Assembly: GCF_000024025.1 (NCBI RefSeq)
Contig: NC_013131.1
Location: forward strand, 3,038,001 to 3,102,000
Direction: 5' to 3'
DNA from: Catenulispora acidiphila DSM 44928
Lineage (GTDB): Bacteria; Actinomycetota; Actinomycetes; Streptomycetales; Catenulisporaceae
DNA: 64,000 nucleotides
In this document: piece after piece, positions 17,266 through 60,299 of the stretch
How the letters are laid out: each line of letters begins with the position of its first letter
Position numbering within the stretch: position 1 is the stretch's first letter
Notes under the pieces: generated by a model
The model's database searches: none
What the model saw: only the letters and a program-made list of their open reading frames with translations
What the model was told of the DNA's origin: nothing
Program-made: the position numbers and the translations under genes

Positions 17266-18102
17266 TTAGGGCAGGAAGTCGGTCAGCGCGGTGAGCAGGG
17301 CTGCGGGCCGGTCCAGCGGGATGATGTGTCCGCACTCTGCGATGTCGAGTCGGGTGACGTCGTCGCAGACCTGCCGCAGTTGGTGATACAGCGCCGGGCC
17401 CACCGGGTGCGCGCCGACCGCGAGCGTGGGGACGGACAGGCGGCCGGCGAGCGTGGCGGCCTGGATTTGGCGTGCGGTGGCGGGCATGGCGCGGTAGTGC
17501 TCGAAGGCGCAGCGCAGGGACTCGGTCCCGGTGTACGCGGCGACGAACGCATCGCGGACCTCGGCGGGGATGCCACGGCCCTGGGTCCCGGCCGTCAGGA
17601 ACCAGTCCACGTATTCGGGCTCGTGACCGGCCAGCACCTGTTCGGCCAGTCCCGGTACGGCGTGGAAGCCGAACCACCACGGCGGCCCGGCGGGGAGGAA
17701 GTCTTCCGCGCCGGGTAGGCGGCCCAGGAACGCCTCCATGAGGACCAGGCGGCGGACAAGGTCGGGCCGGCGCATCGCCAGCAGGAACGCCGGAGGTGTG
17801 CCGGCGTCGATGCCGACGACCGCGGCGGAGTCCACGTTCAGGGCGGCCAGCAGCCCTTCGGCGTCGGCGGCGAGGTTTTCGGCGTCGTAGCCGTCGGCGG
17901 CGCGGGTGGTGGCGCCGAGGCCGCGCAGGTCTGGGGCGATGACCCGGTACTGGTCGGACAGCGGTCCCATGACCGAGCTCCAAAGCTGCCAGGTGTGCGG
18001 GAATCCGTGCAGCAGTAACACTTCCGGGCCCGTTCCGCAGACGGCGACGTTCACCTCTATCCCGTTGACGGGTACGCGGAGCAGATCGACAGCTGCGGGC
18101 AT
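17266..18102 (-). CDS. Alpha/beta hydrolase, epoxide hydrolase / haloalkane dehalogenase-like
   Basis: 278 residues from the ATG at 18102, which has a GGGAGAA ribosome site; a TTG four codons upstream would place that site inside the gene. Visible motifs are the oxyanion segment LLHGFPHTWQLW, APDLRGLG, and a nucleophile elbow VGIDAGTP in which Asp, not Ser, is the probable nucleophile, as in epoxide hydrolases. The catalytic His is in ECGHIIPLDRP. The divergent HxlR regulator and the palindrome between the genes suggest repression lifted by a small toxic compound. Confidence 0.88.
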   Translation of the reverse strand: MPAAVDLLRVPVNGIEVNVAVCGTGPEVLLLHGFPHTWQLWSSVMGPLSDQYRVIAPDLRGLGATTRAADGYDAENLAADAEGLLAALNVDSAAVVGIDAGTPPAFLLAMRRPDLVRRLVLMEAFLGRLPGAEDFLPAGPPWWFGFHAVPGLAEQVLAGHEPEYVDWFLTAGTQGRGIPAEVRDAFVAAYTGTESLRCAFEHYRAMPATARQIQAATLAGRLSVPTLAVGAHPVGPALYHQLRQVCDDVTRLDIAECGHIIPLDRPAALLTALTDFLP

Positions 18103-18116
18103 GGTTTCTCCCAAGT

Positions 18117-18141
18117 GGTTACCATTGGATACCTGGTAACC
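18117..18141. promoter_or_regulatory. HxlR-type operator between hydrolase and regulator
   Basis: Perfect 8-base arms GGTTACCA and TGGTAACC flank a 9-base spacer. The site begins 15 bases upstream of the hydrolase start and lies within the shared promoter region of both divergent genes. Confidence 0.65.
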
Positions 18142-18200
18142 CTAGGAAACCGACGGCGAGTGGCCAAGACGGCACTTCCGCGTCAGGTGGTGAGGTGGAA

Positions 18201-18587
18201 GTGACCGCCCTGTCCGACAACACACGCGGCGACCTGTTCGATCCGGCGTGCCCGACGCGCGCGCTGCTGGACCGCGTCGGCTCGAAGTGGACGTCGATGG
18301 CCGTGAAGCTGCTCGCCGAGGCCGCACCGCAGGAGATCCGGTTCGCAGAGCTGCGCCGCAGGATGCCCGGCGTCTCGCAGAAGATGCTCGCCACGACGCT
18401 ACGCGCCCTGGTCCGCGACGGGCTCGCCCAGCGGCGCGTCGAGCCGACGGTCCCGCCGCGCGTGCACTACAGCCTGACCCCGCTCGGTCTGTCGCTGGAT
18501 GGACCATTGGCCGTACTGCGAGCCTGGGCTGAGGAGCACATGGCCGAAATCGACCGCGCGAATCGGGATGCGGACGCCGCGGGCTAG
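18201..18587 (+). CDS. HxlR family transcriptional regulator
   Basis: 128 residues from a GTG at 18201 with GAGGTGG just upstream; a GTG at 18195 lies within that site. The winged helix is typical: CPTRALLDRVGSKWTSMAVKLLAE, RFAELRRRMPGVSQKMLATTLR, and the wing VPPRVHYSLTPLG. A single Cys (CPTR) occupies the position often used for redox or electrophile sensing. It probably represses the divergent hydrolase through the 18117-18141 palindrome. Confidence 0.9.
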   Translation: MTALSDNTRGDLFDPACPTRALLDRVGSKWTSMAVKLLAEAAPQEIRFAELRRRMPGVSQKMLATTLRALVRDGLAQRRVEPTVPPRVHYSLTPLGLSLDGPLAVLRAWAEEHMAEIDRANRDADAAG

Positions 18588-18647
18588 ACCGCCGACCCTG
18601 AGAGCTCTCAGGTACTGCCACGCGTCAGACCTTCCTAACCTGGCGAC

Positions 18648-21149
18648 GTGATACGTATCAGAAGGTTGGCACGCTGGCTGGCGATCGCGGCGATGGCCAC
18701 CGCGGGCCTGGCCGCCCCGTCCGCCGCGCACGCCGCGTGGCCGGAGCCGCAGGCTGCCATGTCCTGTAAGCCGTGGGTGATCCTCTCCGCGTACGGCACC
18801 AACGAGTACACAGACTCCGGGCACCCGTACGGGAGCACCGGCGTCAACGAGACCTACATCAAGGCGATCACCAACGCCTTGGCCGATCACAAGATCGGTC
18901 AGCGCACCCCGGACGGCAACTACTACCCGGTGCCGAACGCGACGGTCGACATCCGGAACCTGCCCTATCCGGCCGGTCCCGGCTTGCCGAACCTGCTCAC
19001 CGGGTACTTCGACTCGGTCGAGGCCGGCCGGGCCGAACTGGTGAAGGAGGTGCGCTGGTACTCCGACAACTGCGGGGGCGGCACCAAGCTGGTGCTCGTG
19101 GGGTACTCGCAGGGTGCGCAGGTGGTCAAGAAGGCGCTGGCCGATCCCGGGCTCCAGTCGGCCCAGTACGTGATCAACGGTGTGGTGAACATCGCCGATC
19201 CGACGCGCTACAACAACACGAGCGGCTTCACCGATCCCGGTGACATGAAGACGGTCGACAAGAACTGGTCGCCCGCCTCGCCCGCGGCCGCTGACGGCGG
19301 CCTGATGGGCCGCATCGCCGTGCCGCAGATGTTCTCCCGAGGGCTGACGGACCGGCGGTACTTCGACGTCTGCCGGACCGACGACATGGTGTGCAACCGG
19401 CCCGGGGCGCCGAACCCGAACGACTTCCTGACCCTGTTCGGGCAGAGCCTGGGCGACGGCAGCCACACCTCGTATCGCGACGGCGCGGGACTGGCCACCG
19501 CCACGGCCGTCGCCACCAAGATGGTGTCCACCGCGCTGGGGCCCATCATTAGCCCGCCGGACCCCAACGACTACTCGTGCACACAGCACGGCGACACCGA
19601 CTCCCTCGGTGCGGCGGCCATCCGGGCCGCGTGCGACGTGCAGACCCAGGGCACCTGGTACACCTGGGGCGGCGGCCACTCGGTGAATCCGCCGCAGGCC
19701 ACCTACGGCACGGTCGACCCCTCGGATCCGATTCGCAGCGCCAACGACCCGATCCACAAGGGCTTCGACTGCTCCGGCTTCATGCGCTACGTGTACTACG
19801 TCGCAGCGGGCTACGACATCATCGGCGACCGGACCGCCGATGGGAACTTCAAGGCGCCGTGGTCGGTGCGCATCGACCCGAACCAGGGCATCCTCGGTCT
19901 CATGCCGGGTGACATCGTGTTCTTCGGCAGCCCGGGCTACGCCCACCACACCGCGCTGTACCTGGGCGCCGGCAAGATCGTCGAAGCGCGGCAGTCCAAC
20001 GAGCTGATCCGGGTCTCGGACCTGTTCAGCCACACCGACTACGTCGGCGCGATCCGGGTCAGCGGCGCCGGAGGCGGCGGCGGTCCCAACTCCACGTGGG
20101 GGACCGGTGTCCGGACCCACTCCTCGGCCTCCGTCGGTTCCCCGGTCTACACCACGCTGCCCGGGCCGACCGGCATCCGGATCGACTGCCAGGAGCACGC
20201 CGAGGCCGTGACCGCCGAGGGCTACACCAACGACGTGTGGTCGCACCTGCCGGACCTCGGCGGGAGCTGGGTCTCCAACATCTACGTGCAAGGGCCGGCC
20301 TGGTTGCCGGGAATCCCGGCGTGCGACGGGACAGGGCCCTCGACCGGATCGCAGTCGACCTGGGGCGCGAACGTCAACGTGCACTCGATCGCGGCGGTCG
20401 GCTCGCCGGTCGTCTCCACCCTGCCGGGTCCCACGTCGGTGACCGTCAAGTGCCAGGAGCACGCCGAGCCGGTGACCGCCGAGGGCCTCACCAACGACGC
20501 CTGGTCGTTCCTGCCGGACTACAACGGCTACGTCTCCAACATCTACATGAAGGGCGCGGCCTGGCTGGACGGCGTTCCGACCTGCGACGGCGGCGCCGCG
20601 AGCGGGGGAGCGAACCACACGACCTGGGGGACGAACGTCAACCTGCACACCGGTCCGTCCGCCGGGTCCGGGGTCGCGGCCGTCCTGCCGGGTCCCACCT
20701 CGGTGCGGATCGACTGCCAGACCCACGGCCAGTCGACCACCGCCGAGGGCTACACCAACGACGCCTGGTCGCACCTGCCGGACAGCAACGCCTGGATCTC
20801 CAACATCTACGTGACCGGGGACCCCTGGCTGGCCGACGTCCCCACCTGCGAGGGCGGGACCGGCGGCGGATCGCAGAACTCGCCGAACCAGCGGCAGGTG
20901 TGGGCGACGAACATCAACGTGCGGCAGGACACGACGACGTCCTCGGCGGTGGTCACCACGATCCCAGCGCCGACGACGGTCGCCATCAAGTGCCAGTGGC
21001 ACGGGACTCCGGTCACCGACCAGGGCTACACCAACGACGGATGGTCCTACCTGCCGGACTACAACGGCTGGATCAGCAACATCTACATCAAGGGCACGGC
21101 GTGGCTGGACGGCATCCCGGAATGCACGGCACCGCCGCACGCCAGTTGA
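18648..21149 (+). CDS. Secreted cutinase - NlpC/P60 - SH3-repeat fusion protein
   Basis: 833 residues from a GTG at 18648 with no good ribosome site. A Sec signal peptide ends near AHAAWPEP. Residues about 40-300 form a cutinase-like esterase, with the nucleophile elbow GYSQG (Ser154) and paired cysteines. Residues about 310-475 form an NlpC/P60 peptidase with Cys375 in FDCSGF and His433 in YAHHTALYLG. Four SH3-like repeats of about 88 residues complete the protein, each with WGT.V..H, then LPGPT, C..HA, E.YTNDAWS.LPD and SNIYV. The combination suggests an exported enzyme that anchors to the cell wall, cleaves peptidoglycan cross-bridges and hydrolyses an ester (cutin, mycolate or polyester). 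A strong terminator follows. Confidence 0.9.
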   Translation: MIRIRRLARWLAIAAMATAGLAAPSAAHAAWPEPQAAMSCKPWVILSAYGTNEYTDSGHPYGSTGVNETYIKAITNALADHKIGQRTPDGNYYPVPNATVDIRNLPYPAGPGLPNLLTGYFDSVEAGRAELVKEVRWYSDNCGGGTKLVLVGYSQGAQVVKKALADPGLQSAQYVINGVVNIADPTRYNNTSGFTDPGDMKTVDKNWSPASPAAADGGLMGRIAVPQMFSRGLTDRRYFDVCRTDDMVCNRPGAPNPNDFLTLFGQSLGDGSHTSYRDGAGLATATAVATKMVSTALGPIISPPDPNDYSCTQHGDTDSLGAAAIRAACDVQTQGTWYTWGGGHSVNPPQATYGTVDPSDPIRSANDPIHKGFDCSGFMRYVYYVAAGYDIIGDRTADGNFKAPWSVRIDPNQGILGLMPGDIVFFGSPGYAHHTALYLGAGKIVEARQSNELIRVSDLFSHTDYVGAIRVSGAGGGGGPNSTWGTGVRTHSSASVGSPVYTTLPGPTGIRIDCQEHAEAVTAEGYTNDVWSHLPDLGGSWVSNIYVQGPAWLPGIPACDGTGPSTGSQSTWGANVNVHSIAAVGSPVVSTLPGPTSVTVKCQEHAEPVTAEGLTNDAWSFLPDYNGYVSNIYMKGAAWLDGVPTCDGGAASGGANHTTWGTNVNLHTGPSAGSGVAAVLPGPTSVRIDCQTHGQSTTAEGYTNDAWSHLPDSNAWISNIYVTGDPWLADVPTCEGGTGGGSQNSPNQRQVWATNINVRQDTTTSSAVVTTIPAPTTVAIKCQWHGTPVTDQGYTNDGWSYLPDYNGWISNIYIKGTAWLDGIPECTAPPHAS
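18649..18660. promoter_or_regulatory. Palindrome overlapping the fusion gene start codon
   Basis: TGATACGTATCA is fully self-complementary and includes the last two bases of the GTG start codon. It could be an operator or, in RNA, a short start-codon hairpin. Confidence 0.35.
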
Positions 21150-21268: not shown

Positions 21269-22933
21269 TCAGCCTGCGTATTCCCGAGCGTATTCGAGCA
21301 CGGAGTTGGTGAACTCGACGGCGTTCGGCGGCACTCCGTTGGCCTGGCTCACCGCCTTGGTGCTGGTGTCGTACGCGGCGACGGTGAGCGCGGCCAGGTC
21401 GCCCGGCGGGTGCTCCTTGATGAACTCCTCGTCCAGCCAGCACAGGTACTGGCCGGCAGCCATGATGGCGTCGTCGGGGTTCATGTAGTCGGCCCGCGGA
21501 CCGGGAGCCCAGGCGGTGAAGACCCGCGGAGTCCAGCCGGCGATGCCGTAGGAGTCGGTCGCCGGGCTGGAGAACTTCGGGTCGAAGCCGCTCTCCACTT
21601 TCAGCACGGCCGCGACCATGGCCGGCGTGACTTCCGGCGTCGGGCAGGCGTGGGCCGCGCGGCTGATGACGTCGCGGTATTCGGCGGGGACCGCGGCGTC
21701 GGGGCGCAGTTCGCCTCGGGTGAGCGCCGGAGCGGACCGGGGACTGCCCGCTGCGCCGGTGGCCGGTGCGGCGGCCGGCCCGGTGACCGTGCCGGTGTGC
21801 GGCGAGGAAGCGGCGGTCTTCCCCTGCGAGCCGTTCTTGAGAACGAGGACCGTCGCCGCGACCGCGACGATCGCGACGACCGCCGCCACCGCGACCGCTG
21901 GAATCAGGACTCTGCGACGCGTGGAAGGCCCTGTCGGCTGCGCCGTCCCGTGCTCGCTGTGCTCACTGTGCGCACTGCGATCACCGTGCCCACTGCCACC
22001 GGCGCGGCCGATCCGCTCGGCCAGACTCCGCGCCGTGACGGCGCCGCGCCGGGCGTGATCGGGCGCGAGACAGTCCCTGATCAGCGACCGCCAGGGTTCT
22101 GCGATCCGCTCGTCCAGGAGCAGGCCTTCGCCGGTGTGGGCGTAGGCCTGCGCGCTCATCGCCCGGGCGTGCGGTGAGGCGCCGGCGAAGGGGTGACGCC
22201 CGCCGGCGAGCACCTGGTGGGTCAGGATTCCGAAGGCCCAGATGTCCGCGGTCGGACGCAGCGCGATGCCCTGTTCCCCGACCTGCTCGGACCACCATTC
22301 CGGCGGAAGGTAGTCCGAGGAGCCGATCCGCGGCGCGTAGGCGTGCGTGCCGTCGAGTTCCGTCGTGACGCCGAAGTCGGCCAGGCGCGCGCTGCCGTCG
22401 GCCATCAACAGCACGTTGCCGGGCTTCACGTCGCCGTGCACCCAGCCGGCGTCGTGCATGAAAGCCAGGGCCGAACAGACCTCCGCCAGGATCCGCTCCC
22501 CGTCGCCGAGGTCCGCACCGTTCTGAAGCAGCTGTCTGACGTTGCTGACGCCGCGTTCCATGACCAGCACCGTCGCGCCGTCGACGGCGGCGTCGCCGGA
22601 CTCGGCGGTCTCCACGGCCACCGTGCGGATCAGCGCGGGATGCTCGATGCTCTCGCTGAACCGGCGCTCGCGGTCCACGACCTCGGCGAGCAGGGCGCGC
22701 CGCCCCGGGGTGCCGACCGAGGGCGGCAGGAACTTCAGGGCCACCTCGGCCGGATCGCCGTCCACGGCCGCGTCCCCGACTGCTTCCCCGAGATAGACGC
22801 TGCCCCAGCTGCCCGAGCCCAGATACCCGGTGACCCGCCAGCGGCCGACGACGAAGCCGTCCGGCACCTCGACGGGCCTCGCCCCCGCCCCGGCGGCCGG
22901 CTCGCCGGTGTTCCCGGCGCCGTCCACGGTCAC
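21269..22933 (-). CDS. Transmembrane Ser/Thr protein kinase with extracellular lytic-transglycosylase-like domain
   Basis: 554 residues from a GTG at 22933 that overlaps the TGA of the FHA gene (GTGA). The kinase domain (about 30-310) shows the glycine loop YLGSGSWGSVYLG, VALKFL, catalytic WVHGDVKPGNVLL (HGD in place of HRD, Asp168), DFG and the APE-like PPEWWSE. One membrane helix lies at about 337-365. The outer part (about 410-554) reads CPTPEVTPAMVAAVLKVESG with Glu447, then DSYGIAGWTP and YLCWLDEEF, the pattern of a Slt/goose-lysozyme-like lytic transglycosylase. Known actinobacterial kinases carry PASTA or sensor domains there, so this is an unusual fusion linking wall cleavage or binding to phosphorylation. 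Confidence 0.88.
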   Translation of the reverse strand: MTVDGAGNTGEPAAGAGARPVEVPDGFVVGRWRVTGYLGSGSWGSVYLGEAVGDAAVDGDPAEVALKFLPPSVGTPGRRALLAEVVDRERRFSESIEHPALIRTVAVETAESGDAAVDGATVLVMERGVSNVRQLLQNGADLGDGERILAEVCSALAFMHDAGWVHGDVKPGNVLLMADGSARLADFGVTTELDGTHAYAPRIGSSDYLPPEWWSEQVGEQGIALRPTADIWAFGILTHQVLAGGRHPFAGASPHARAMSAQAYAHTGEGLLLDERIAEPWRSLIRDCLAPDHARRGAVTARSLAERIGRAGGSGHGDRSAHSEHSEHGTAQPTGPSTRRRVLIPAVAVAAVVAIVAVAATVLVLKNGSQGKTAASSPHTGTVTGPAAAPATGAAGSPRSAPALTRGELRPDAAVPAEYRDVISRAAHACPTPEVTPAMVAAVLKVESGFDPKFSSPATDSYGIAGWTPRVFTAWAPGPRADYMNPDDAIMAAGQYLCWLDEEFIKEHPPGDLAALTVAAYDTSTKAVSQANGVPPNAVEFTNSVLEYAREYAG

Positions 22934-23730
22934 TGTCCGGCCCGCCGGGCCGGCAGCATCCGGAGGTGCTCGTCCCGCACCAGGTCGAAGCGCAGCGCCA
23001 GCGCGACGATCGCCTCGCGTTTCCAGTCCATGCGCGCCGCGCCGTCGGTCCCCTCCCGCTCCCGGACCCGCAGTTTCGTCGTGGCCAGATAGTCGATGTG
23101 GTAGTTGACCGCCGACTTGGTCAGGTCCGCGCAGGAGGGCAGCGGCCGCAGCCGCTCCACGACGTCCCCGGCGTTCGGTATGGCGACCGCGGAGGCCTCG
23201 CGCAGCCGCGGTTCGCACAAAGCCAGCAGTACCAAGAAGTACTTCGCCGTCGGATCGAGGGAGAACGGCAGCACGGTGCGCTCGCCGGCACCCGGCGCCC
23301 GCGCCCCGGTCCCAGCCGCGGTCCCGGTCGCCTCTGATCCGGTCAGATCCGAGTACGAATCCGAGTACGAATGTTGAGGTGCGTAGACCGTGAAGCCCAC
23401 GAAACCGTCGGCCACCGGGAGCACCACACGGGAGATCTCGAACGGAATGGGCGCCCCGATCCGGCCCGGCGCCACCTTGACGTGCTCCCCGGCACCTTCC
23501 AGATTCTCCACGACGTAGGTGGTGGTGCGGCTGAAGTTGGAGATCCGCCAGTGGTCGTCCACGGCGGCCAGTTCCCCGGCCCGCCGGGACACACCGTCCC
23601 CGGCGAGTTCCAGGCCGACCGGTGCGTTCGGCGCGCCCCGGCCGAAAGTCAGCACATCGCCGGGTCCCAGGCGCAGCAAGCCCGGCGGGCGCGTACGCGG
23701 GTCGGAGGGCTGGACGATCACAGTGTCCAT
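22930..23730 (-). CDS. FHA-domain protein with C-terminal winged-helix region
   Basis: 266 residues, taking the ATG at 23730 (MDTVIVQPSD); a GTG 11 codons upstream is possible but its ribosome site is too close. The N-terminal third fits an FHA phosphothreonine-binding domain: LTFGRG, then GVSRRAGEL, then WRISNFSRTTTYV. After a Ser/Tyr/Thr-rich linker the C-terminal half (FLVLLALCEPRLR...LTKSAVNYHIDYLATTKLRVRE) looks like a winged helix. It is translationally coupled to the kinase gene, so it is the probable substrate or adaptor, passing the signal to DNA or to partners. Confidence 0.85.
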   Translation of the reverse strand: MDTVIVQPSDPRTRPPGLLRLGPGDVLTFGRGAPNAPVGLELAGDGVSRRAGELAAVDDHWRISNFSRTTTYVVENLEGAGEHVKVAPGRIGAPIPFEISRVVLPVADGFVGFTVYAPQHSYSDSYSDLTGSEATGTAAGTGARAPGAGERTVLPFSLDPTAKYFLVLLALCEPRLREASAVAIPNAGDVVERLRPLPSCADLTKSAVNYHIDYLATTKLRVREREGTDGAARMDWKREAIVALALRFDLVRDEHLRMLPARRAGQ

Positions 23731-24073: not shown

Positions 24074-24913
24074 ATGGCAATGAACAGCATGGCTGGCCGG
24101 CGGCGCTCTGCTCGATCGCGGACAGAGGCGTCTGCGGCCCATTGGTTGAACGCGCTTGCCCGGGTGGGATTCGTCGCACGCGGGGTCATCTATTTCCTCA
24201 TCGGACTGCTCGCCTTGGCAATCGCCACGGGGAAGGCCGCACCCCAGGCCGACCGGGTCGGCGCGCTGCAGTTCATCGCCGGCCAGTCCTACGGCAAGCC
24301 TCTGTTGTGGGCCTTGACCGTCGGGTTGGCCGCTATGGCGCTTTGGCGGTTCGCCCAGGTGTTTTTCGGTATTCGCCGGCACAGTCGCCAGCACGGTGAG
24401 GAGGCGCAGTCGTTCGCGCGCGGCCTGATCTATGCGGTGTTCTTCGTGGGGACGCTGCACTACGCGCAGGGTTCTGGGCTTCCGAAGAACAGCGGACAGC
24501 AGTCGCGGGACTTCACCGCGCAGGCCATGACGCACTCCGGAGGCCGCGTTCTGGTGGTCGTCGTCGGGCTGGTCATCGCCGCGATCGGCCTTTACATGCT
24601 GTGGAACGGGCTCACCCACCGGTTCTTGAAGGATCTGCGCACCGCGAGCATGAGCCGTCGCGCTCGTACCGTCGTCACCTGGCTCGGCACGGTGGGGAAC
24701 ATCGCCCGCGGGCTGCTGTTCGGAGCGCTCGGCGGCTTCATGATCGACGCGGGGCTGTCCTACAAGCCGAACGAGGCCAAGGGCACCGACGCGGTGCTGC
24801 GCTCCTTCGCGCACACCGCGGTGGGACCGGCGCTGTTGATCGCCGTGGCGGTCGGACTCGTGGTGTTCGGCCTGTTCTCCATGTGCGAGGCGCGCTGGCA
24901 CCGCGACCTGTGA
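24074..24913 (+). CDS. DUF1206 integral membrane protein
   Basis: 279 residues, preceded by GGAGG. Three copies of a two-helix unit of about 80 residues are recognisable: LARVGFVARGVIYFLIGLLAL, SFARGLIYAVFFVGTLHYAQG, and VGNIARGLLFGALGGFMIDA. Each is followed by a second helix. This is the DUF1206 layout. Function is unknown; members are common in actinobacterial membranes. The phospholipase D-like gene follows after 46 bases on the same strand. Confidence 0.92.
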   Translation: MAMNSMAGRRRSARSRTEASAAHWLNALARVGFVARGVIYFLIGLLALAIATGKAAPQADRVGALQFIAGQSYGKPLLWALTVGLAAMALWRFAQVFFGIRRHSRQHGEEAQSFARGLIYAVFFVGTLHYAQGSGLPKNSGQQSRDFTAQAMTHSGGRVLVVVVGLVIAAIGLYMLWNGLTHRFLKDLRTASMSRRARTVVTWLGTVGNIARGLLFGALGGFMIDAGLSYKPNEAKGTDAVLRSFAHTAVGPALLIAVAVGLVVFGLFSMCEARWHRDL

Positions 24914-24959
24914 ACGGTCGGCAGACGCAGACTTGGACACCACCCCGGTAGGAGGCGGC

Positions 24960-26561
24960 ATGGACCCGCGAACGTGGTTGATCACGCGTCATGAGCGGGG
25001 CAACCCCGCCACCAGGGTGGACGACGAGCACGCGGCGCAGGCGGCGTGGTCGGAGGGAAACCTCGTCGAGCCGTTGATCCACGGCGCGGAGTACTTCGCC
25101 GCGCTGTCCGCCGCGGTGCGCGACATGCGCGCCGGCGACCTGCTGTTGTTCACCGACTGGCGGGGCGACGGCGACGAGACCGTGGACGATGAGGGCACGA
25201 CCGTCGGCAGCCTGCTGAGCTCGGCGGCTCGCCGCGGCGTGCACGTCAGGGGTCTGGTATGGCGGTCGCACGTCGACCGGATGCGCTTCAGCGAGACGGA
25301 GAACCGTCATCTGAGCCAGGAGGTGGAGGCCGCAGGCGGCCGTTGCCTGCTCGACACGCGCGTGCGGCCGGGCGGCTCCCACCACCAGAAGTTCGTCGTC
25401 TTGCGCCACGCCGGACGTCCCGAGGCCGATGTCGCCTTCATCGGGGGCATCGATCTGTCTCACGGCCGCCGCGACGACGCCCGGCACGAGGGGGACCCGC
25501 AGACCGTCGAGATGGCCGATGTCTACGGCAAGCGCCCGCCCTGGCACGACGCGCAGGCGATGATCCACGGTCCGGCGGTCGCCGACGCCGAGCGCGTCTT
25601 CCGCGAGCGCTGGGAGGACCCGGCACCGGTGACGCGCAATCCCCTGCACCGGGCCCGAGCCCTGCTGAGCCGCGAGGAAACCAAACAGACACCGCTTCCC
25701 GCGCCGCTCCCGCCCCCGCAATCCTGCGGCCCGCACGCGGTGGAACTGCTGCGCACCTATCCCAAGCGCACGGCCGGCTACCCCTTCGCTCCCGAGGGCG
25801 AGCGCAGCGTCGCGCGCAGCTATCTGAAGGTGCTCAGCCAAGCCAGGAAGCTGATTTACCTGGAGGACCAGTACCTCTGGTCCCGCGAAGTCGCTGTCCC
25901 CTTCGCTGAGGCGCTGGCCGCCAATCAGGGCCTTCATATGATCGCCGTCGTGCCGCACCATCCGGCTGAGCAGGGCCGCGTCGCCCAATCCGCCATGCTG
26001 GCAGGCCGCAACCAGGTGCTGGACATGCTGCGCGCCGCCGGAGGCGACCGCTTCGCCGTCTACGGCATCGAGAACCACGCCGGCACCCCGGTTTACGTCC
26101 ACGCCAAGATCACCGTGATCGACGACGTGTGGGCGGCGATCGGCTCGGACAACCTCAATCTGCGTTCCTGGTCCCACGATTCCGAGCTGAGCTGCGCGGT
26201 CCTGGACCATACCCGCGACCCCCGCGAGCCGCAGGACGTCGGCCGAGCCGGCGACTTCCCCCGGCGCTTCGCCCGAGACCTCCGCCTGCGCCTGGCCCGC
26301 GAGCACCTGGACCGTGCCGATGGCGACGACGCCGACCTCTGGGATCCCACATCGGCGTTCCAGGCCTTCGCCCACGCGGCCGCCGAACTCCGCGACTGGC
26401 ACTCCTCCAACCGCACCACCGCCAGACCCCCCGGCCGCATCCGCCCCTACGAGGCAGCTCCCCAGTCTCGAACAACCACCCTGTGGGCCACCCCGGTCTA
26501 CCGCACCCTGTTCGACCCGGACGGACGTCCCCGTGCCCTGCGTCGCAGCGGGAGTTTCTGA
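24960..26561 (+). CDS. Phospholipase D-like / cardiolipin synthase-like protein
   Basis: 533 residues from the ATG at 24960, six bases after TAGGAGG; an in-frame ATG at 24933 lacks a site. Two PLD half-sites are present. The first, GSHHQKFVVLRH (near residue 140), has His and Lys but Arg in the place of the usual Asp. The second, YVHAKITVIDDVWAAIGSDN (near residue 380), is complete. No signal peptide is visible. Members cleave or transfer phosphatidyl groups. It probably acts at the inner membrane and may be cotranscribed with the DUF1206 gene. Confidence 0.9.
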   Translation: MDPRTWLITRHERGNPATRVDDEHAAQAAWSEGNLVEPLIHGAEYFAALSAAVRDMRAGDLLLFTDWRGDGDETVDDEGTTVGSLLSSAARRGVHVRGLVWRSHVDRMRFSETENRHLSQEVEAAGGRCLLDTRVRPGGSHHQKFVVLRHAGRPEADVAFIGGIDLSHGRRDDARHEGDPQTVEMADVYGKRPPWHDAQAMIHGPAVADAERVFRERWEDPAPVTRNPLHRARALLSREETKQTPLPAPLPPPQSCGPHAVELLRTYPKRTAGYPFAPEGERSVARSYLKVLSQARKLIYLEDQYLWSREVAVPFAEALAANQGLHMIAVVPHHPAEQGRVAQSAMLAGRNQVLDMLRAAGGDRFAVYGIENHAGTPVYVHAKITVIDDVWAAIGSDNLNLRSWSHDSELSCAVLDHTRDPREPQDVGRAGDFPRRFARDLRLRLAREHLDRADGDDADLWDPTSAFQAFAHAAAELRDWHSSNRTTARPPGRIRPYEAAPQSRTTTLWATPVYRTLFDPDGRPRALRRSGSF

Positions 26562-27083: not shown

Positions 27084-30000
27084 ATGAGCGCCATCGATGA
27101 TGAGTTCCAGCACGTCATGGACAGCTACACACGCGACACCCGCGCCGCCCGCAAAGCGGTCCAGGCGGACCGGGACCAACAGATCGCGATGCTGTATCCC
27201 GACGCCCGGACCTTCCGCCTCAAGCAGGCGGACGCGATCAGCGACACCGAGAAGGGCGAGAAGGCCCTGGCGCTCGTACCGGAGACGCTGACGCTCGTCA
27301 CGCCCGACCTGCGCGACCCGAAGCGTGACCACCTCTTCGTCGGGCCGCATCCGGTGCCCTCGGTCGGCATGACGTGGAACCCCGTGCACCGGGAGCTCAG
27401 CTTCCTCACCTCCGACGGCGAGCACAAGATCAGCGGCCACCTGTCGATGACGCACAACCGGCTGCGCGCGTACGGCACCGTCTCCGTCGACGGCCAGTCC
27501 GTCGCGGTGGAGTACCACGTCGATCCGCAGCGCTACAAGATGAAGGTCGCCAAGGGCGCCGCGTACCTGGCGGCGGACCGGTCCATCACCTGGGACACCA
27601 CCACTGACCGCTGGAAGAACGCGGAGTGGAGCACCGACTACGAGCTCGGATTCACCTACGGGATCAACGGCGAGGAGGTCATCGGCGACGAGAAGCTGTA
27701 CACCTTCCTCGCGAAGTTCGACAACCCGAAGACCGGCCGCAGCTGGGAGCCGGTCCCCGAGACGTACGGCGGCTACCTGAACAAGCAGCGGCGCATCAAC
27801 TTCGGCCTGCTCTCCGACTACAAGCCGCCGTCGGGCACGGGGACCGAGCTGTTCCCGTACCGGTTCTCCTGCACGCTCAGCGAGTTCGCCGCCGACTTCA
27901 CCGGCGGTCTGGTCGTCGATCCCCCCGGCAGCACCAACCCGCTGGTGTACGGCGCCATCGGCGTCTGGACCGGACGCGGGATCGCCGGGCTCTACCACCT
28001 CGGGGACGCCGGGCATGGCGCTGTGCGGATCGTCGCGGTCCACGCCGGCCGGCTGTACGCCGGCTCCGTGGCCGCCGCGCACACCGAGATCGACGGCGAC
28101 GTGCTGGTCTGGAGCGGGCTGGACAAGGTCGCGGCGGACCAGGCCGGGATCCCGACCGAGGGCCGGCTGGCGTTCTCCCCCGACGGCGGGCGCGTCCTGC
28201 ACTCCTCGTTCGGCGCGACCGGCGAGCGTGTGCACCCGGACCAGGCTCTGGACCTCGTGTCCCGGATCGCCGTCACCGGTCTGGCCGCCTCGCTGCGGCA
28301 CGCGGTGGCGCTGGCGAACCCCGGCCCGGGCGCGACCCACGATCTCAGCGAACTGATGGCCATGAGCCAGTTCACGCGCAACGAGAAGGACGAGTACTAC
28401 GACAAGGTCCAAGAGGACTCCATGGAGGACTTCTACAAGATCCTCCAGAACTACATGGACCCGGAACTGCGCTCGACCTTCTTCCACCGCGACCCGCCGG
28501 CCCTGGACCAGACGCTGCGGGACATCGCCAAGACCAAGGGCAAAAAGGGCACCGACCCGTTCCCGTGGTTCAAGTCGCTCAGCGTCGCCTACACCGCGAC
28601 CTGCGTCGGCAAGTACAGCGACGACCCGGCGGCCAAGACGCTGAACACGATCCGCGCCGAGCAGTGGCTCTCGCAGACCACCAGCGGCAGCGACGTCATG
28701 GACGCCCAGGCGCCGCTGCTGTACGCGAACCGCTGGAGCGAGCGCCCGGCCAACAAGCACCTCGGCTGGTACCTGGCCGACCAGAAGGCCAACTCGGTGA
28801 AGTACGCCGGCGACATCGACGCCACGACCGAGGCCTGGCTCAAGGAGGCACGGGAGGCCAACGTCGGCACGCCCGAGCAGCTGGCGGAGCTGGAGAAGTC
28901 GATCCGGACGATCGGCGACCACGCCAAGAAGCACGACCAGTTCTGGGCGTTCGCCGTCTACATCGGCGCCTCGCGGCCCAGCTACATGAACATGCTGGAG
29001 TCGTTCATCAAGCTCGGCGGCGAGGTCGACGGCTCGGAGTTCAGCCAGCGCGTGCAGCGCACGGTCGCGACCCTGACCGTGCTGGACACCTCCGGCGTCA
29101 TCGCCCAGGAGTACGCCTACATGCTCCAGCTCTTCGAGCTGAGCACGCTGCTGCCGCAGATGGCGGACCTGGAGGGCGGCGTCGGCGGCTTCAACTTCGC
29201 GGTGAAGGCGATCATCGACAAGTTCGTCGAGAAGTACCTCGGTTCCAAGGACCCGGCGCTCGACGAGGCCGCGAAGCTGCTGAAGGAGCACGCGTCGCAG
29301 GACGTCGTCGGCAAGATGCTGGCGATCCTGCGGACCACGGCGGCGGTCGGGTACGGCCTGTTCAACTGGGGCTTCCTGATGGCGCAGTACACGAGCAAGT
29401 GCGCGCAGCTGCTCGGCAGCCTGCCCGCGATGGTCGTCCGGCTCGGCGCGCTCGCCGCCATGGGGACCTTGATGAGCTTCTTCCTCGACGGGACCGCCGA
29501 CTGGAACTCGCTGAGCGACGAGCAGATCGGGTTCATCTCCCTGGCGGGAGCCAACATCCTGGCTCTCAACGCGCTCGCGCTCATCAAGCGCGGCGTCGCG
29601 CTGCACGAGGTCTGGAACCCGGCCAAGGGATTCTGGAAGAACGCGAAGATGTTCTTCTCCTCCAAGCTCCTGGCCAAGGCACAGGCAACCGCGACCAACG
29701 GGCTGCGCGGCTATCTGCTGCAGGAGGGCGGGCCGAAGGTCCCGGCCGGGCGGATCACCTTCAAGCAGTGGTGGGCGAACCGGCAGGCCGCGGCGGCGGC
29801 GCCGCTGGTGCCCAAGCCCTCCCAGTCCTTCGCGCGCCGGCTGTTCGGCAAGAACCTGACCCAGTTCATGGCGCGCGCGCTGGCCGGGGCGTTCGCGATC
29901 GTCGGGATCGTCATGTCCTCGATCGACCTGCACCACAGCGGCGAGCCGTTGGAGAAGGCGGCGCACGCGATGTTCCTGCTGGCCGCCTGCCTGGAGCTGG

Positions 30001-31043
30001 TCGCGGTGATCGGCGCCTGGGCGCTCGGCACCTCGGCGCTGGCCGTCGGCGGGATGCTGGTCAGCACGATGTTCTCGATCGTCTCCGGCATCGGCTTCCT
30101 CGCCCTGGTCGCCGGCGCGATCCTGCTGATCGTGTTGATGACGCGGCCGCAGCAGACGCCGGTCGAGAAGTTCGCCAAGGAGCGCGCGGGCGATCTCTAC
30201 ATGCCCTACAAGGCGGCCATCGAGACGTTCCGCATCTACAAGCCGATCGGCGAGCCGCAGCGCGCGGGCATCGCGGTGTTCGCGACCACGGACCAGTCGC
30301 ACGCGCTGCGCATCGCCTCGGACGGGAAGGTCACGCAGGCTCCGTTCGACGCCACCGGGCACACCGCGTTCTACGTGTCCGTCGACGAGTTCGGCCGCAC
30401 CCAGCTCGGCGCGCCGATCGTGAACACCAAGGGCAAGCCGTGCCTGATGAGCCTCGCCGTCGACGACGCCGGCGCGATCGCGGCCCAGGACTACGCCTCC
30501 GACCTGCCCGAGCCGGAGCCGAAGCTGCTGTGGTACGCGGACATCCAGGGCGAGGGCACCTACCAGGACACCACGCCGGACGTGAAGGAGCTGAAGTCGG
30601 CTCCCTTCAAGCTGCGCAGCGTGTTCTTCGTCGACAGCAAGAAGGAGGTCCGCTGGCTGGCGGCCGACGGCGCGTCCGGCTGGAAGACGACGACCGACGC
30701 GGCCGAGGCGGCGACCGTCCGGCTGGAGATGGTCGCCACCAAGCCCACCGAGCTCGCGATGACCGACGTCTCCTGGTTCACCGTCGCGCACGACGAGGTC
30801 ACCGGTCCCGGTCTGCAGGTCCCGGGCAGCGTGCCGCAGGAGTGGTCGATCTCCCCGGCGCTGCCGACGGGCCTGGAGTTCGACAAGGCCGAGGGCACGA
30901 TCTCGATGCGGAAGGGCGCCGACATCCCGGCCGCCCCGAAGCAGGAGTACACGCTCACGGTGAAGAACGGCGTCGGCTCGGCCGCGACGACATTCTCGCT
31001 GGAAGTCGTCGAGCCCTCCGAGGAGATCATGGCCGCCGCCTGA
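27084..31043 (+). CDS. Large protein with central hydrophobic hairpins and C-terminal He_PIG Ig-like domain; function unknown
   Basis: 1319 residues. The ATG at 27084 follows AGGGGGGAT. There is no signal peptide. Residues 1-70 are charged and helical, and about 70-400 look beta-rich (WNPVHRELSFLTSDGEHKISG, YRFSCTLSEFAADFTGGLVV). Residues 410-740 are alpha-helical. Hydrophobic segments lie at about 749-803, 816-839, 929-951 and 962-1020, the last two as a long paired hairpin (LLAACLELVAVIGAWALGTS, FLALVAGAILLIVLMT). Residues about 1235-1312 form a He_PIG (putative Ig) domain: EWSISPALPTGLEFD, then YTLTVKNGVGSAATTFSLEV. I recognise no family for the main body. A soluble protein with buried hydrophobic hairpins recalls alpha-helical pore-formers, but this is only an analogy. 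It precedes the Hint-domain gene by 245 bases. Confidence 0.85.
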   Translation: MSAIDDEFQHVMDSYTRDTRAARKAVQADRDQQIAMLYPDARTFRLKQADAISDTEKGEKALALVPETLTLVTPDLRDPKRDHLFVGPHPVPSVGMTWNPVHRELSFLTSDGEHKISGHLSMTHNRLRAYGTVSVDGQSVAVEYHVDPQRYKMKVAKGAAYLAADRSITWDTTTDRWKNAEWSTDYELGFTYGINGEEVIGDEKLYTFLAKFDNPKTGRSWEPVPETYGGYLNKQRRINFGLLSDYKPPSGTGTELFPYRFSCTLSEFAADFTGGLVVDPPGSTNPLVYGAIGVWTGRGIAGLYHLGDAGHGAVRIVAVHAGRLYAGSVAAAHTEIDGDVLVWSGLDKVAADQAGIPTEGRLAFSPDGGRVLHSSFGATGERVHPDQALDLVSRIAVTGLAASLRHAVALANPGPGATHDLSELMAMSQFTRNEKDEYYDKVQEDSMEDFYKILQNYMDPELRSTFFHRDPPALDQTLRDIAKTKGKKGTDPFPWFKSLSVAYTATCVGKYSDDPAAKTLNTIRAEQWLSQTTSGSDVMDAQAPLLYANRWSERPANKHLGWYLADQKANSVKYAGDIDATTEAWLKEAREANVGTPEQLAELEKSIRTIGDHAKKHDQFWAFAVYIGASRPSYMNMLESFIKLGGEVDGSEFSQRVQRTVATLTVLDTSGVIAQEYAYMLQLFELSTLLPQMADLEGGVGGFNFAVKAIIDKFVEKYLGSKDPALDEAAKLLKEHASQDVVGKMLAILRTTAAVGYGLFNWGFLMAQYTSKCAQLLGSLPAMVVRLGALAAMGTLMSFFLDGTADWNSLSDEQIGFISLAGANILALNALALIKRGVALHEVWNPAKGFWKNAKMFFSSKLLAKAQATATNGLRGYLLQEGGPKVPAGRITFKQWWANRQAAAAAPLVPKPSQSFARRLFGKNLTQFMARALAGAFAIVGIVMSSIDLHHSGEPLEKAAHAMFLLAACLELVAVIGAWALGTSALAVGGMLVSTMFSIVSGIGFLALVAGAILLIVLMTRPQQTPVEKFAKERAGDLYMPYKAAIETFRIYKPIGEPQRAGIAVFATTDQSHALRIASDGKVTQAPFDATGHTAFYVSVDEFGRTQLGAPIVNTKGKPCLMSLAVDDAGAIAAQDYASDLPEPEPKLLWYADIQGEGTYQDTTPDVKELKSAPFKLRSVFFVDSKKEVRWLAADGASGWKTTTDAAEAATVRLEMVATKPTELAMTDVSWFTVAHDEVTGPGLQVPGSVPQEWSISPALPTGLEFDKAEGTISMRKGADIPAAPKQEYTLTVKNGVGSAATTFSLEVVEPSEEIMAAA

Positions 31044-31107
31044 CGGCCGCTTGGGACAGGCCGGGCTCGCAGGAGGCGATCCTGATCCCGCTCCCGGTCT
31101 CGCAGAG

Positions 31108-31172
31108 TCCTGACGGTGGTGCCGGCCACCGCCGTCAGGACCCTGTCGGTCGTGCCGACCGTGCCGACCGAC
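31108..31172 (+). terminator. Two consecutive hairpins between the large protein and Hint genes
   Basis: Hairpin one has arms TCCTGACGG (31108-31116) and CCGTCAGGA (31132-31140), with further pairing inside. Hairpin two has arms GTCGGTCG (31145-31152) and CGACCGAC (31165-31172). No T-run follows. They could terminate or attenuate transcription before the Hint gene. Confidence 0.5.
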
Positions 31173-31185
31173 GGGATCCACCGGC

Positions 31186-31262
31186 ACGAGATCCGTGTCA
31201 TCCGTGTCATCTATGTCGTCTGTGTTGTCAAGTGTCGTCAGTTGTCATCAAGTGTCATCCGT
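31186..31262 (+). repeat. Degenerate TGTCATC-type repeat before the Hint gene
   Basis: Six or more imperfect units related to GTGTCATC and TGTCGTC run from about 31195 to the Hint gene leader. The stretch is unusually T-rich for this window and has no coding signal. Confidence 0.5.
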
Positions 31263-31288
31263 GCACCGCATCGGGCCAGGAGGCTGCC

Positions 31289-33631
31289 ATGAGTTCACCG
31301 TTCAACCCGCGCGACGTCGAGGCGTTGGCCGCGGCGCTGCCGCCGGAGGGCGTGAACCCCGTCGGCGCCGCGGCCCGCGGCGTGCTCGTCATGCACGCCA
31401 AGCGGCTGACGCCGGGCAACTACTCGCAGATGTTCGGGACCGGCCCGGCGTTCCGGACCATCTTCTTCCCGAACCTCGGCACCAGCCCCTACGAAGGGCT
31501 CATCGGCCCGAACACCGGCCTGGACGACGGGTTCTTCCAGACGGCCTCGATCGCGCTGCTGTGCCGGCAGATGGGGAACGTGACGAGCCGGCTGCGGCCG
31601 CAGATCCTGGTGGCGAAGGCCGACGAGGACCTGCGGAACTACTCGGCGCGCATCCGGCAGAACTCCCACCGGTTCTACGCCGAGTTGCTGAAGCTCGTCG
31701 ACAGTCCGATCCGCACGGCGCTCGCCGCGTTCCGCGACGAGCCCGCCCGGGTCGCGGCTCGCGGCCACTACCTGGAAGGCATCACCTCGGCGGCGTGGGT
31801 GAACGCCAAGATGACGCAGTGGACTGGCGGGTTCTGGCCCGACCGCGACTGGGAGCTGTTCAACCACTACGCGAAGCTGACCGCGCTGGGCTGCTCGGTC
31901 GCCGAGATCGACGGCGCGATCACGCGGATCGTGCAGCAGGGGCTCGCCGTGCCGGCCGAGCTGCGGGCCGGCGCCTGGCACCGGATCGCGCCGTGGTTCG
32001 GCGGCGACCTGCGCGGCGAGGACGTCGGGGACGCCAACGGGCCGATGCTGGCGACCAAGTGCCACGTCTACCCCGGGGCGATGTACCCCGCGTGCATCTC
32101 CGAGGACAACTCGCTGGAGTTCACCGCGCTCTCGCAGCCCGGGACGGGGTACCGGCACGTCCCGAGCTCGTCGTGCTTCGCGCCCGGCACGCGGGTCGTC
32201 ATGGCCGACGGCGCGCTGCGGGCGATCGAGGACGTCGGCGTCGGAGACGAGGTCGCCACGCCGACCGGTCCGCGCGCCGTGATCCTTCGTCCGCAGCCGC
32301 TGCGGGGCGACCGGGTGCTGGAGCGTTTCGAGGGGACCTCGTTCGCCTTCGCGCCGTCGCATCCGTTCGTGACGGCCGACGGGGACGCCGCGTACGCCGC
32401 GGCGGACCCCGAGTCGTTGGCGCGCAGCGTGCCGACGCTGGGCCAGTTCGGCATCCGGCCGCTGAAGGGCGCCGAGTTGCTGCGGCGGACGGCGGACGGC
32501 AAGACCGACCCGTGGGCCGCGCCACCGCTGCGGACCGTGCCGGAGGAACGGCCGGAGACGCTGTACGACCTGTACCTGGCGGTCGGCGGCGACGGCCGGA
32601 GCGAGTACTACGCGGGCGATGAGTCGGTGCAGGTGCTCGTCAGCTCCGAGGTCCCGCGCTTCGCCGCCGCGCCGGAGACGACGGCCGTGGTGTTGCAGGT
32701 GCTGGAGCAGGCCGGTCCGGCGATACTCGGCGCGCTGGCCGACGTTCCGGAGGAGTCCTTCGAGGATCTGCTGACGATCGGGCTGGACAGCATGGCGCGG
32801 ACGATGCTGCCGGTGATCGGGCACGAGCTCACGGCCGATCCGCGTGCCGCGGCTGAGGCCGAGACGGTCCTCGTCGCACCAGCACAGAGCTCTGCCTCAC
32901 CGGAGGCGATGGCGGAGGCGGTCGCGGCAGCGGTCCGGACCTTCGCGACGTCGCTGGCCTCCGCTCCCGAGGGCTATGACCGGCGCATGGGCGTCTTGGT
33001 CGAGCAGTTCGCGTCCCGGTTCGCCCCGCAGTTCCAGGCGCTGCTGGCCCTGCCGTGGCGCTCGTTCGACCTGGCCGAGGCCGACATCACCGACGTCCTC
33101 GCGCTCACCCTCTACAGCGTCGAGCTGTTCCGTCGCGGACCGGTCGCCAAGAAGGCCGAGGCCGAGCTCACCCTCCGCTACCGCGGCCTGTCCACCACGC
33201 GCCGCCTGCCGATCCGTCCGGGCTCACCCGCCGACCGGTGGTACTACAGCGTCGACGACGTCGCCTACTTCCCCGAATGGTCCGAGCCCGATCCCGACGG
33301 ATCGCTGTGGGAACTGGAGATCGCGATCAGCCCCGACGCAGGCGGCGCCCGCATGACCCTGCCCCTTCCCCGCGACATCGCCCACGGCTTCCAGGCCTTC
33401 GCCGCACCGGTGTCCGACACCTCCGGCGCCGTAGTCGGCCACGCGCAATTCGACGTCAGACTCCTGACACTCGAAGCCCTCGCCACCGAGATCCGCGACC
33501 ACGCCGCGCCGACCTCCCGCCGCGATGTCGCCGAGCGTCTCGCGCACCTCGCGGCGCAGTACATCACCCGCGAGTTCGCGACCGCCGTGAAGCTGCTCCG
33601 GTTCTGCGCGGCGACGACGCGGACGCCCTGA
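31289..33631 (+). CDS. Hint (hedgehog/intein) domain-containing protein of unknown function
   Basis: 780 residues from an ATG with an AGGAGG site. Residues 1-290 are a largely helical region I do not recognise (RGVLVMHAKRLTPGNYSQMFG, TASIALLCRQMGN). A Hint domain begins at Cys296 in SSSCFAPGTRVVMADG, continues with AIEDVGVGDEVATP and contains FAPSHPFVTADG (His358). It ends near residue 450 at YYAGDESVQVLVSS, without the His-Asn plus Cys/Ser/Thr that splicing inteins need. Such domains can self-cleave at the N-terminal Cys. About 330 more residues follow, ending in a beta-rich region (LTLRYRGLSTTRRLPIRPG, WYYSVDDVAYFPEWSEPD). It probably works with the large protein upstream. Confidence 0.85.
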   Translation: MSSPFNPRDVEALAAALPPEGVNPVGAAARGVLVMHAKRLTPGNYSQMFGTGPAFRTIFFPNLGTSPYEGLIGPNTGLDDGFFQTASIALLCRQMGNVTSRLRPQILVAKADEDLRNYSARIRQNSHRFYAELLKLVDSPIRTALAAFRDEPARVAARGHYLEGITSAAWVNAKMTQWTGGFWPDRDWELFNHYAKLTALGCSVAEIDGAITRIVQQGLAVPAELRAGAWHRIAPWFGGDLRGEDVGDANGPMLATKCHVYPGAMYPACISEDNSLEFTALSQPGTGYRHVPSSSCFAPGTRVVMADGALRAIEDVGVGDEVATPTGPRAVILRPQPLRGDRVLERFEGTSFAFAPSHPFVTADGDAAYAAADPESLARSVPTLGQFGIRPLKGAELLRRTADGKTDPWAAPPLRTVPEERPETLYDLYLAVGGDGRSEYYAGDESVQVLVSSEVPRFAAAPETTAVVLQVLEQAGPAILGALADVPEESFEDLLTIGLDSMARTMLPVIGHELTADPRAAAEAETVLVAPAQSSASPEAMAEAVAAAVRTFATSLASAPEGYDRRMGVLVEQFASRFAPQFQALLALPWRSFDLAEADITDVLALTLYSVELFRRGPVAKKAEAELTLRYRGLSTTRRLPIRPGSPADRWYYSVDDVAYFPEWSEPDPDGSLWELEIAISPDAGGARMTLPLPRDIAHGFQAFAAPVSDTSGAVVGHAQFDVRLLTLEALATEIRDHAAPTSRRDVAERLAHLAAQYITREFATAVKLLRFCAATTRTP

Positions 33632-52117: not shown

Positions 52118-52187
52118 TCCCGATCGGCGCTCCTCAGCTCGACCATCAGTGCACATCCATCACGGGGGCTTCTGACTGGAGACAGTG

Positions 52188-58259: not shown

Positions 58260-58300
58260 CGGCGTGTATGGGCCTTGCAAGCCAAGGCCCATACACGCCG
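58260..58300. terminator. Exact 18-base-stem hairpin between convergent genes
   Basis: Arms CGGCGTGTATGGGCCTTG and its exact complement, with a five-base loop, lie between the TetR and helicase genes. This is the longest perfect stem seen in the window and can terminate both transcripts. Confidence 0.8.
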
Positions 58301-58360
58301 CGTGGTACGGGTAGGGCTGTCGTCGGTGACCAGCGATCACCGTCGAGCCCTGATGTGCTG

Positions 58361-59869: not shown

Positions 59870-59876
59870 GGGATGA

Positions 59877-59906
59877 CCTTCCTCGAGAGGCGCGTTTCGA
59901 GGAAGG
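59877..59906 (-). promoter_or_regulatory. Leader hairpin that hides the helicase ribosome-binding site
   Basis: On the minus strand, arms CCTTCCTCGA and TCGAGGAAGG pair perfectly around a 10-base loop. The second arm contains the AGGAAGG ribosome site, seven bases before the ATG. A second stem (CCGCGGT and ACCGCGG, 59914-59930) lies just upstream. Sequestration of the site suggests translational control such as an RNA thermosensor or autoregulation by the helicase. Confidence 0.6.
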
Positions 59907-60095
59907 AGCCGGGCCGCGGTGAAACCGCGGGCAGACCATCACGAACGAGCCTGAAAAACGTGGGGCGTGGACGGTGGAACCGTTCGGACCGCACTGGTAC
60001 TACGAGAAGAACAGTTCGGCGGGACCCGGAGACGTTGCCGGGCGCGTGGCGCGGACGCAGCTTAGGCAAGCTCCGCCGCGTCCCCCGCGGGAAAA

Positions 60096-60299
60096 TCAGA
60101 TCGGGCGGATGTTCTCGGCATGCGGGCCCTTGGGGCTCTGCGCGATCTCGAACTCGACCCTCTGGCCCTCGAGCAGCTCGCGGAAGCCTTCGGCGCTGAT
60201 GTTCGAGAAGTGGGCGAACACGTCAGGTCCGCCGTCGTCCTGCTCGATGAAACCGAAACCCTTTTCCGCTTTGAACCACTTCACGGTGCCAACAGTCAT
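60096..60299 (-). CDS. Cold-shock protein, CspA family
   Basis: 67 residues from the ATG at 60299 ([20 protein letters not shown]), preceded by AAGGAAG. The RNA-binding motifs RNP1 (KGFGFIE) and RNP2 (VFAHF) are intact. It acts as a nucleic-acid chaperone. The start is set by alignment to the family, which begins at this Met. It is followed downstream by the DEAD-box helicase on the same strand, a functionally related pair. Confidence 0.97.

Follow-up and report, generated by a model that had tools for sequence, protein, structure and literature searches.

A two-gene family of a large protein with hydrophobic segments and a Hint-domain partner in at least five bacterial phyla

Background

PMC7664689 and PMC7906309 describe how a Hint domain that retains its first Cys and lacks the last Asn can undergo an N-S acyl shift and cannot splice, as is the case in Hedgehog. 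According to PMC7906309 ligation in Hedgehog is enabled by a C-terminal sterol recognition region and the block-B Thr and His of human SHH are T267 and H270, and PMC7664689 presents the bacterial intein-like (BIL) domains as performing cleavage more than splicing.

Within a stretch of 64,000 nucleotides of Catenulispora acidiphila DSM 44928 (NC_013131.1, positions 3,038,001 to 3,102,000, referred to here as the window; the genome is a single contig of 10,467,782 bases) two genes lie on the same strand, the first encoding a large protein of 1319 amino acids (P0001, 27084..31043), whose relatives were found by protein search, and the second a Hint-domain partner of 780 amino acids (P0002, 31289..33631), with a gap of 245 bases between them (31044..31288). 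All coordinates are given in the window and on the forward strand unless stated otherwise. These positions and lengths agree exactly with a preliminary description of the locus made from its sequence, which had recognised no described system with such a pairing, and we likewise found none matching both proteins in the open-licence literature or by sequence and profile searches. As far as these searches reach the pair constitutes an unnamed two-gene family that is not yet described. Long antisense and overlapping frames are present at the pair, as is to be expected from a GC3 of 0.94-0.97 in both genes.

The partner protein resembles Hedgehog (Hog) in its layout, with a putatively active N-terminal domain, a Hint domain that has the first Cys and no splicing residues, and a further C-terminal region. 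It differs in that the sequence similarity is weak (E 0.033 to 0.11), the catalytic Thr is not conserved, the C-terminal region is not recognisably sterol-binding, no signal peptide is seen and the protein is bacterial. With the BIL domains it shares a weak profile match of its Hint to 2lwy (E 0.011 and 0.0025), but unlike them its Hint has a fixed place within a single family, flanked on either side by a conserved region, and lacks a terminal His-Asn. The best sequence matches to the first part of the Hint are those of the PI-SceI (VMA1) and Prp8 inteins, from which it is set apart by the lack of splicing residues at its C-end and by a whole length of ~160 residues. A Hint of that length is too short for an added endonuclease.

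Results and discussion

Pairing and distribution

In all 12 genomes whose surroundings were read (the window, L002-L007, G265, G382, Pantoea, Gloeothece and G485) the partner adjoins a full-length large gene, with a contig end between the two in one case. The pairing holds from both sides, since six of these loci were fetched by a Hint search and three (G265, G382 and G485) by a large-protein search. The preliminary description had proposed a search for co-occurrence across actinobacterial genomes, and the two genes do co-occur there and outside the actinobacteria too, with the pair found in Actinomycetota, Pseudomonadota, Bacillota, Myxococcota and Cyanobacteriota and in two cases on plasmids.

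The Hint family was scanned for in one genome per species using two peptide patterns, by which relatives may have been missed; 29 stretches matched and six were confirmed, in Rhizocola, Actinocrinis, Burkholderia, Paenibacillus, Saccharopolyspora and Corallococcus. All six have the large gene directly upstream of the Hint partner. In Corallococcus a second large gene also lies directly downstream, so that large gene, Hint gene and large gene follow one another (L007, 6049-16284); the two large copies are not the same, and a single Hint partner may be shared between them. A genome of the same class as Corallococcus (G485) has the reversed order with the Hint partner first. In another genome of that class (G492), which is left out of the 12-genome count, a lone frame of 385 amino acids (L079, 7620-8777) corresponds only to the middle part of the large protein, with no partner match beside it in the stretch fetched, and it is either a remnant or a free-standing domain. 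A tblastn search of plasmids turned up the pair twice, in Gloeothece and in Pantoea, where it lies between a transposase and an integrase.

Carriage of the pair is patchy. In the window's family the two genes occur together at full length in two of 14 genomes and are both lacking in the other 12, and among 394 genomes of its class 16 matched the large protein, three of them at full length (the window's genome, G265 and G382); the remaining 13 matched solely within model positions 1187-1308, that is the Ig-like domain and the stretch just before it, and were not counted. The search of the Burkholderia class returned the starting genome only (1/369), and that of the phylum Actinomycetota at E≤1e-20 the window's own genome only (1/396); as no more than two to four candidates were scored for each genome in these class and phylum searches, relatives may have been missed. 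Viral contigs held relatives of neither protein and no relative was found in phages with two different large proteins as queries. Protein searches returned 30 relatives of the Hint partner, and 21 and 24 large-protein entries, each including the query and one Ig-only match. The partner alignment A1 omits three of the 30 matches (the short P0019, P0029 and P0030), as does A4, which has two locus rows in addition; the large-protein alignments A2 and A3 omit the two partial sequences P0041 and P0050 as well as P0052, which matched in its Ig stretch alone, and A3 adds six locus rows and was built without the further matches of the second large-protein search.

The large protein of Burkholderia is 43% identical to the Catenulispora copy and that of Saccharopolyspora 33%, a relationship that fits horizontal transfer. 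Distances of the large protein and of the partner's N-terminal domain are correlated (Mantel r 0.94, 16 pairs, 0/9999 permutations as high), a correlation that shared descent alone could explain. In this set P0033 to P0044 were matched to their partners by way of equal-sized contigs, and the P0064 row was given to MAFFT with the gap signs of an older alignment, which we assume were stripped. The pair is best explained as a horizontally moving two-gene unit, a reading graded below together with the rest of the model.

The large protein

The N-terminal region of P0001 (residues 60-430, 27261..28373) is conserved and appears beta-rich by eye, has no known relatives and gave no PDB match at E≤10; it is followed by a second conserved region that appears helical by eye (residues 430-775, 28371..29408). 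Taking a hydrophobic segment as a Kyte-Doolittle value of ≥1.6 over 19 residues, we counted five of these between residues 783 and 1017 in a 2+3 arrangement, a first pair at 783-801 and 816-834 (29430..29585) and a second group at 925-943, 963-981 and 999-1017 (29856..30134). Central hydrophobic segments had been noted previously and are indeed present, but their number had been put at four. The 24 aligned large-protein rows have five segments in 19 cases, six in three and four in two, in places that are similar by eye, and the counts in five relatives further away are 3, 5, 4, 6 and 4. Because shuffled versions of P0001 contain 1.5 segments on average and up to 7, the count by itself is weak evidence and it is the recurring positions that bear the weight. 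Going by these conserved segments the large protein probably inserts into a membrane; as regards a comparison with pore-forming toxins, what was found is the recurrence of hydrophobic segments in the large protein, read from the sequence alone.

Behind the hydrophobic segments, residues 1035-1240 (30186..30803) are suggested to form a beta-trefoil, as a profile of this region (A12) matched designed beta-trefoil proteins with a best E of 6.2e-5 over 42 positions, and natural FGF1 only at E 1.6. The C-terminal Ig-like (He_PIG) domain that had been recognised from the sequence is present at residues 1247-1308 (30822..31007; E 6.8e-5), with a score of 23.7 bits that is slightly below the Pfam cut-off of 24, and He_PIG matches at E≤1 in 14 of the 24 rows. 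A distant relative of 1486 amino acids from a metagenome (P0061, 25% identity) has one He_PIG match and, by eye, a second Ig-like stretch at its end. Neither protein of the pair showed likeness by sequence to a solved structure beyond Hint, Ig and possibly trefoil. Judged by eye, none of the aligned large-protein rows begins with a signal-peptide-like stretch, and the earlier idea of a secreted complex therefore finds no support.

The Hint-domain partner

P0002 consists of an N-domain (residues 1-295, 31289..32173), a Hint domain (residues 296-454, 32174..32650) and a C-terminal region (residues 460-780, 32666..33628). The single-sequence Hint matches of P0002 lie under the Pfam cut-offs (Hom_end_hint 1e-5, Vint 0.0049). 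Hom_end_hint and Vint each match at E≤1 in 28 of 30 partner rows, and family profiles match the PI-SceI Hint at 1.5e-8 and 1.8e-10, bearing out the internal Hint domain proposed earlier; by profile similarity this domain is a member of the Hint superfamily.

The predicted cleavage site lies between S295 and C296 (32171..32176), both of which are invariant in 30/30 partner rows, several of these being closely related and so not amounting to 30 independent observations. The block-B His (H358 in P0002) is kept in 27/30 rows and replaced by Gln or Asp in three, and the position of the catalytic Thr at H minus 3 holds Thr in 10/30 and Ser in 7/30, hence Thr or Ser in 17/30, so that the Hedgehog block B is matched in its His but in its Thr in only a third of the rows. 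The C-terminal His-Asn that together with a following nucleophile characterises splicing inteins occurs in 0/30 rows, where the motif LVSSE or a close variant is found instead, with Ser-Ser in place of His-Asn in the window. Profile alignment to 8w20 places this motif at the usual Hint end with a score that is not significant (-0.5 bits). The Hints of Pantoea, Gloeothece and G485 also keep the Cys and His and lack His-Asn, and their end motif reads AVDAE in Pantoea and Gloeothece; in L078 it is LVQPE.

The variability of the block-B His and Thr suggests that catalysis may be weak or absent in some members. Taken further, a Hint that is silent throughout and has a structural or inhibitory part, with the whole 780-residue chain binding the large protein, would account for the rows in which the block-B His (3/30) or the Thr/Ser (13/30) is missing. 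It leaves unexplained why S295 and C296 never vary and why Cys and His persist even in the Pantoea, Gloeothece and G485 copies, and it sits poorly with the Hint-less partners, whose ends lie close to the predicted cleavage site (see below), so that we regard a silent Hint as rather unlikely.

Neither the N-domain nor the C-terminal region of P0002 has a significant match in Pfam or PDB. A C2 domain, which had come to mind by eye for the C-terminal region, was rejected (Pfam 0/10 members at E≤0.5, and a null PDB profile search). The C-terminal region has so far been seen only in Hint-bearing partners, and can be aligned in 10/10 of the Hint-bearing loci given, across phyla and at 14-59% identity to that of the window.

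This conservation bears on two other readings of the partner. In polymorphic toxins the Hint directly precedes the C-terminal toxin according to PMC3482391. Like the polymorphic toxins with a HINT releasing peptidase the partner carries its Hint inside a larger protein, and P0002 might on that analogy be a toxin precursor whose Hint releases a C-terminal toxin domain. The preliminary description had named polymorphic toxins, beside hedgehog-like proteins, as a setting in which Hint domains process or release attached polypeptides. The analogy proves a poor fit: what follows the Hint is conserved instead of variable, can be aligned across phyla, and was not detected in the stretches around the Hint-less relatives (where the search control was the weaker one, described below). 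No secretion leader was recognised, and a comparison of all frames ≥100 residues outside the pair in 13 stretches found no third gene common to more than two loci, where a shared immunity gene might have appeared, although immunity genes may differ between loci. The 11 pairs of such frames that matched at E≤1e-8 were, where inspected, ABC transport proteins, kinases and regulators. We consider a toxin precursor very improbable.

The alternative closest to Hedgehog is a ligation, in which Hint and C-terminal region would pass the N-domain from the thioester to a small nucleophile such as a lipid or amine, and so anchor or cap it. The order of N-domain, Hint without His-Asn and conserved C-terminal region is that of Hedgehog, Hint chains of Hedgehog are found by the family profiles with E values between 0.033 and 0.11, and no C-terminal region was detected at the loci without a Hint (again with the control that recovered one of two control loci per query). 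Set against this are the lack of a recognised ligand site in a region that matches nothing in Pfam or PDB, a catalytic Thr that is not conserved and the existence of Hint-less relatives that do without such an adduct, and we judge ligation to be unlikely.

Partners without a Hint

In two genomes (G265 and G382) the partner profile matches in its N-domain only beside the large gene, at 5.8e-9 and 1.5e-11 respectively. The G265 partner (P0063, 350 amino acids) has a start that overlaps the stop of the large gene by 4 bases and ends near the Hint boundary. That of G382 likewise overlaps the large gene by 4 bases and runs off the contig end; a second contig starts with the remainder and this piece also ends near the Hint boundary, from which we infer that the two pieces are one gene. 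Both ends were placed by an alignment of the N-domain only, in which both fall at the boundary; an earlier whole-protein alignment had distributed the final residues of P0063 over columns of the Hint, so the exact end depends on the alignment used. The N-domain of G265 is only 16-28% identical to the others and that of G382 is cut by the contig end.

No Hint was found near these two partners, the best chance match having an E of 0.028, with each of 10 Hint control queries finding both control loci at ≤1.2e-17. The C-terminal region was not found near them either, where the control was weaker in that each of 10 queries found one of two control loci (weakest 8.8e-4). Each of the two genomes does have a single additional Hint match at another place, in an unrelated frame, and a Hint acting from afar is possible. 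On the large-protein tree (30 sequences) the two Hint-less genomes are placed among carriers of the Hint, and well-supported branches require a minimum of two changes, which may be losses in both cases or one loss followed by a regain. The tree was built from ungapped rows, 12 of the 30 without a label, the P0065/Pantoea/Gloeothece fork is drawn open (94/89) and the long rows P0061 and G485 meet, possibly falsely; with two Hint-less rows a shuffle control was uninformative (500/500 shuffles as low).

The presence of Hint-less partners among Hint carriers marks the N-domain as the core partner and the Hint and C-terminal region as removable, and apparently the N-domain can do its job without them attached. 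Cleavage would be expected to yield an N-domain of ~295 residues, and the Hint-less genomes appear to have a gene for just such a product, which is the strongest, though indirect, argument for cleavage, and loss of an inert structural Hint would leave the same trace as loss of a cutting one. Together with the missing C-terminal splicing residues, the ends near the predicted cut make self-processing of the Hint partner plausible.

The intergenic gap and other genes in the window

The structured nature of the 245-base gap, noted previously, holds on folding, with a 15-bp stem at 31107-31141 and z-scores of -4.5 for 91 nt and -2.8 for the whole gap. Long gaps at other loci often have a stable stem as well (Rhizocola z -3.1, Actinocrinis -4.9, Saccharopolyspora -6.1), a weaker one being seen in Burkholderia (z -1.85, 7/200 shuffles as low) and none in Gloeothece (z -0.8), and elsewhere the two genes are separated by 12 to 38 bases or overlap by 4. 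The stem is a possible candidate for an attenuator that lowers expression of the second gene. No Rfam match was found, the scans returned neither promoters nor terminators and the window contains no T-run terminator.

Upstream of the pair are genes for a DUF1206 protein and then a phospholipase-D-like protein (24074-26561); among the loci compared, only Rhizocola L002 has a protein weakly related to the latter (28% identity over 461 residues), at 17382-20000, ~5 kb downstream of its pair. Further upstream, on the reverse strand, a protein of 649 amino acids (21269-23218) joins a protein-kinase domain to a transglycosylase (SLT) domain at its C-terminus, to our knowledge an unusual combination in one protein. 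On the forward strand a 1237-amino-acid protein (52185-55898) combines a PQQ-type propeller match with repeated HYDIN/ASH-like Ig domains, families known mainly from cilia and centrosomes, and a 643-amino-acid open frame (58268-60199) has no Pfam match at E≤0.001.

Proposed processing and role

The conserved pairing, the catalytic Cys, the missing splicing residues and the Hint-less partners ending near the boundary were computed directly, and with them as a basis we propose the following model. The large protein (~1300 residues, with no apparent signal peptide) would insert its conserved hydrophobic segments into a membrane, and the trefoil-like and Ig-like domains at its end would bind a surface. 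In most of the lineages seen the partner would be made as a precursor of an N-domain of ~295 residues, a Hint and a tail of ~320 residues, whose Hint would perform the first intein step only, an N-to-S acyl shift at C296. The bond after S295 would then break and the freed N-domain would join the large protein, with another cell as the putative target of the assembly. As a whole, a mobile pair in which the Hint cuts after S295 and the freed N-domain works with a membrane-inserting large protein appears to us about evenly balanced between being right and wrong.

The patchy, multi-phylum and partly plasmid-borne spread and the anatomy of the large protein, in which hydrophobic segments are followed by domains that may bind a surface, suggest a weapon-like or membrane-acting pair, a role that we rate below the processing model. 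A toxin-like role is a guess, since no signal peptide and, at the loci, no immunity gene or export gene was recognised. More far-reaching, and in our estimation decidedly unlikely, is a bacterial counterpart of Hedgehog processing, in which Hint and C-terminal region attach a membrane-seeking or another small nucleophile to the end of a partner domain that works with a large membrane-inserting protein, the two genes forming a portable weapon or membrane machine in at least five phyla.

Conclusions

The pair described here is an unnamed two-gene family that is found in at least five phyla, on chromosomes as well as plasmids, and its naturally Hint-less members provide a genetic control for the function of a Hint in a bacterial protein. 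If the large protein inserts into membranes it would represent a new family of such proteins, one without a solved-structure relative that can be found by sequence, and if the cut is real the partner would offer a compact model of Hedgehog-type self-processing outside animals.
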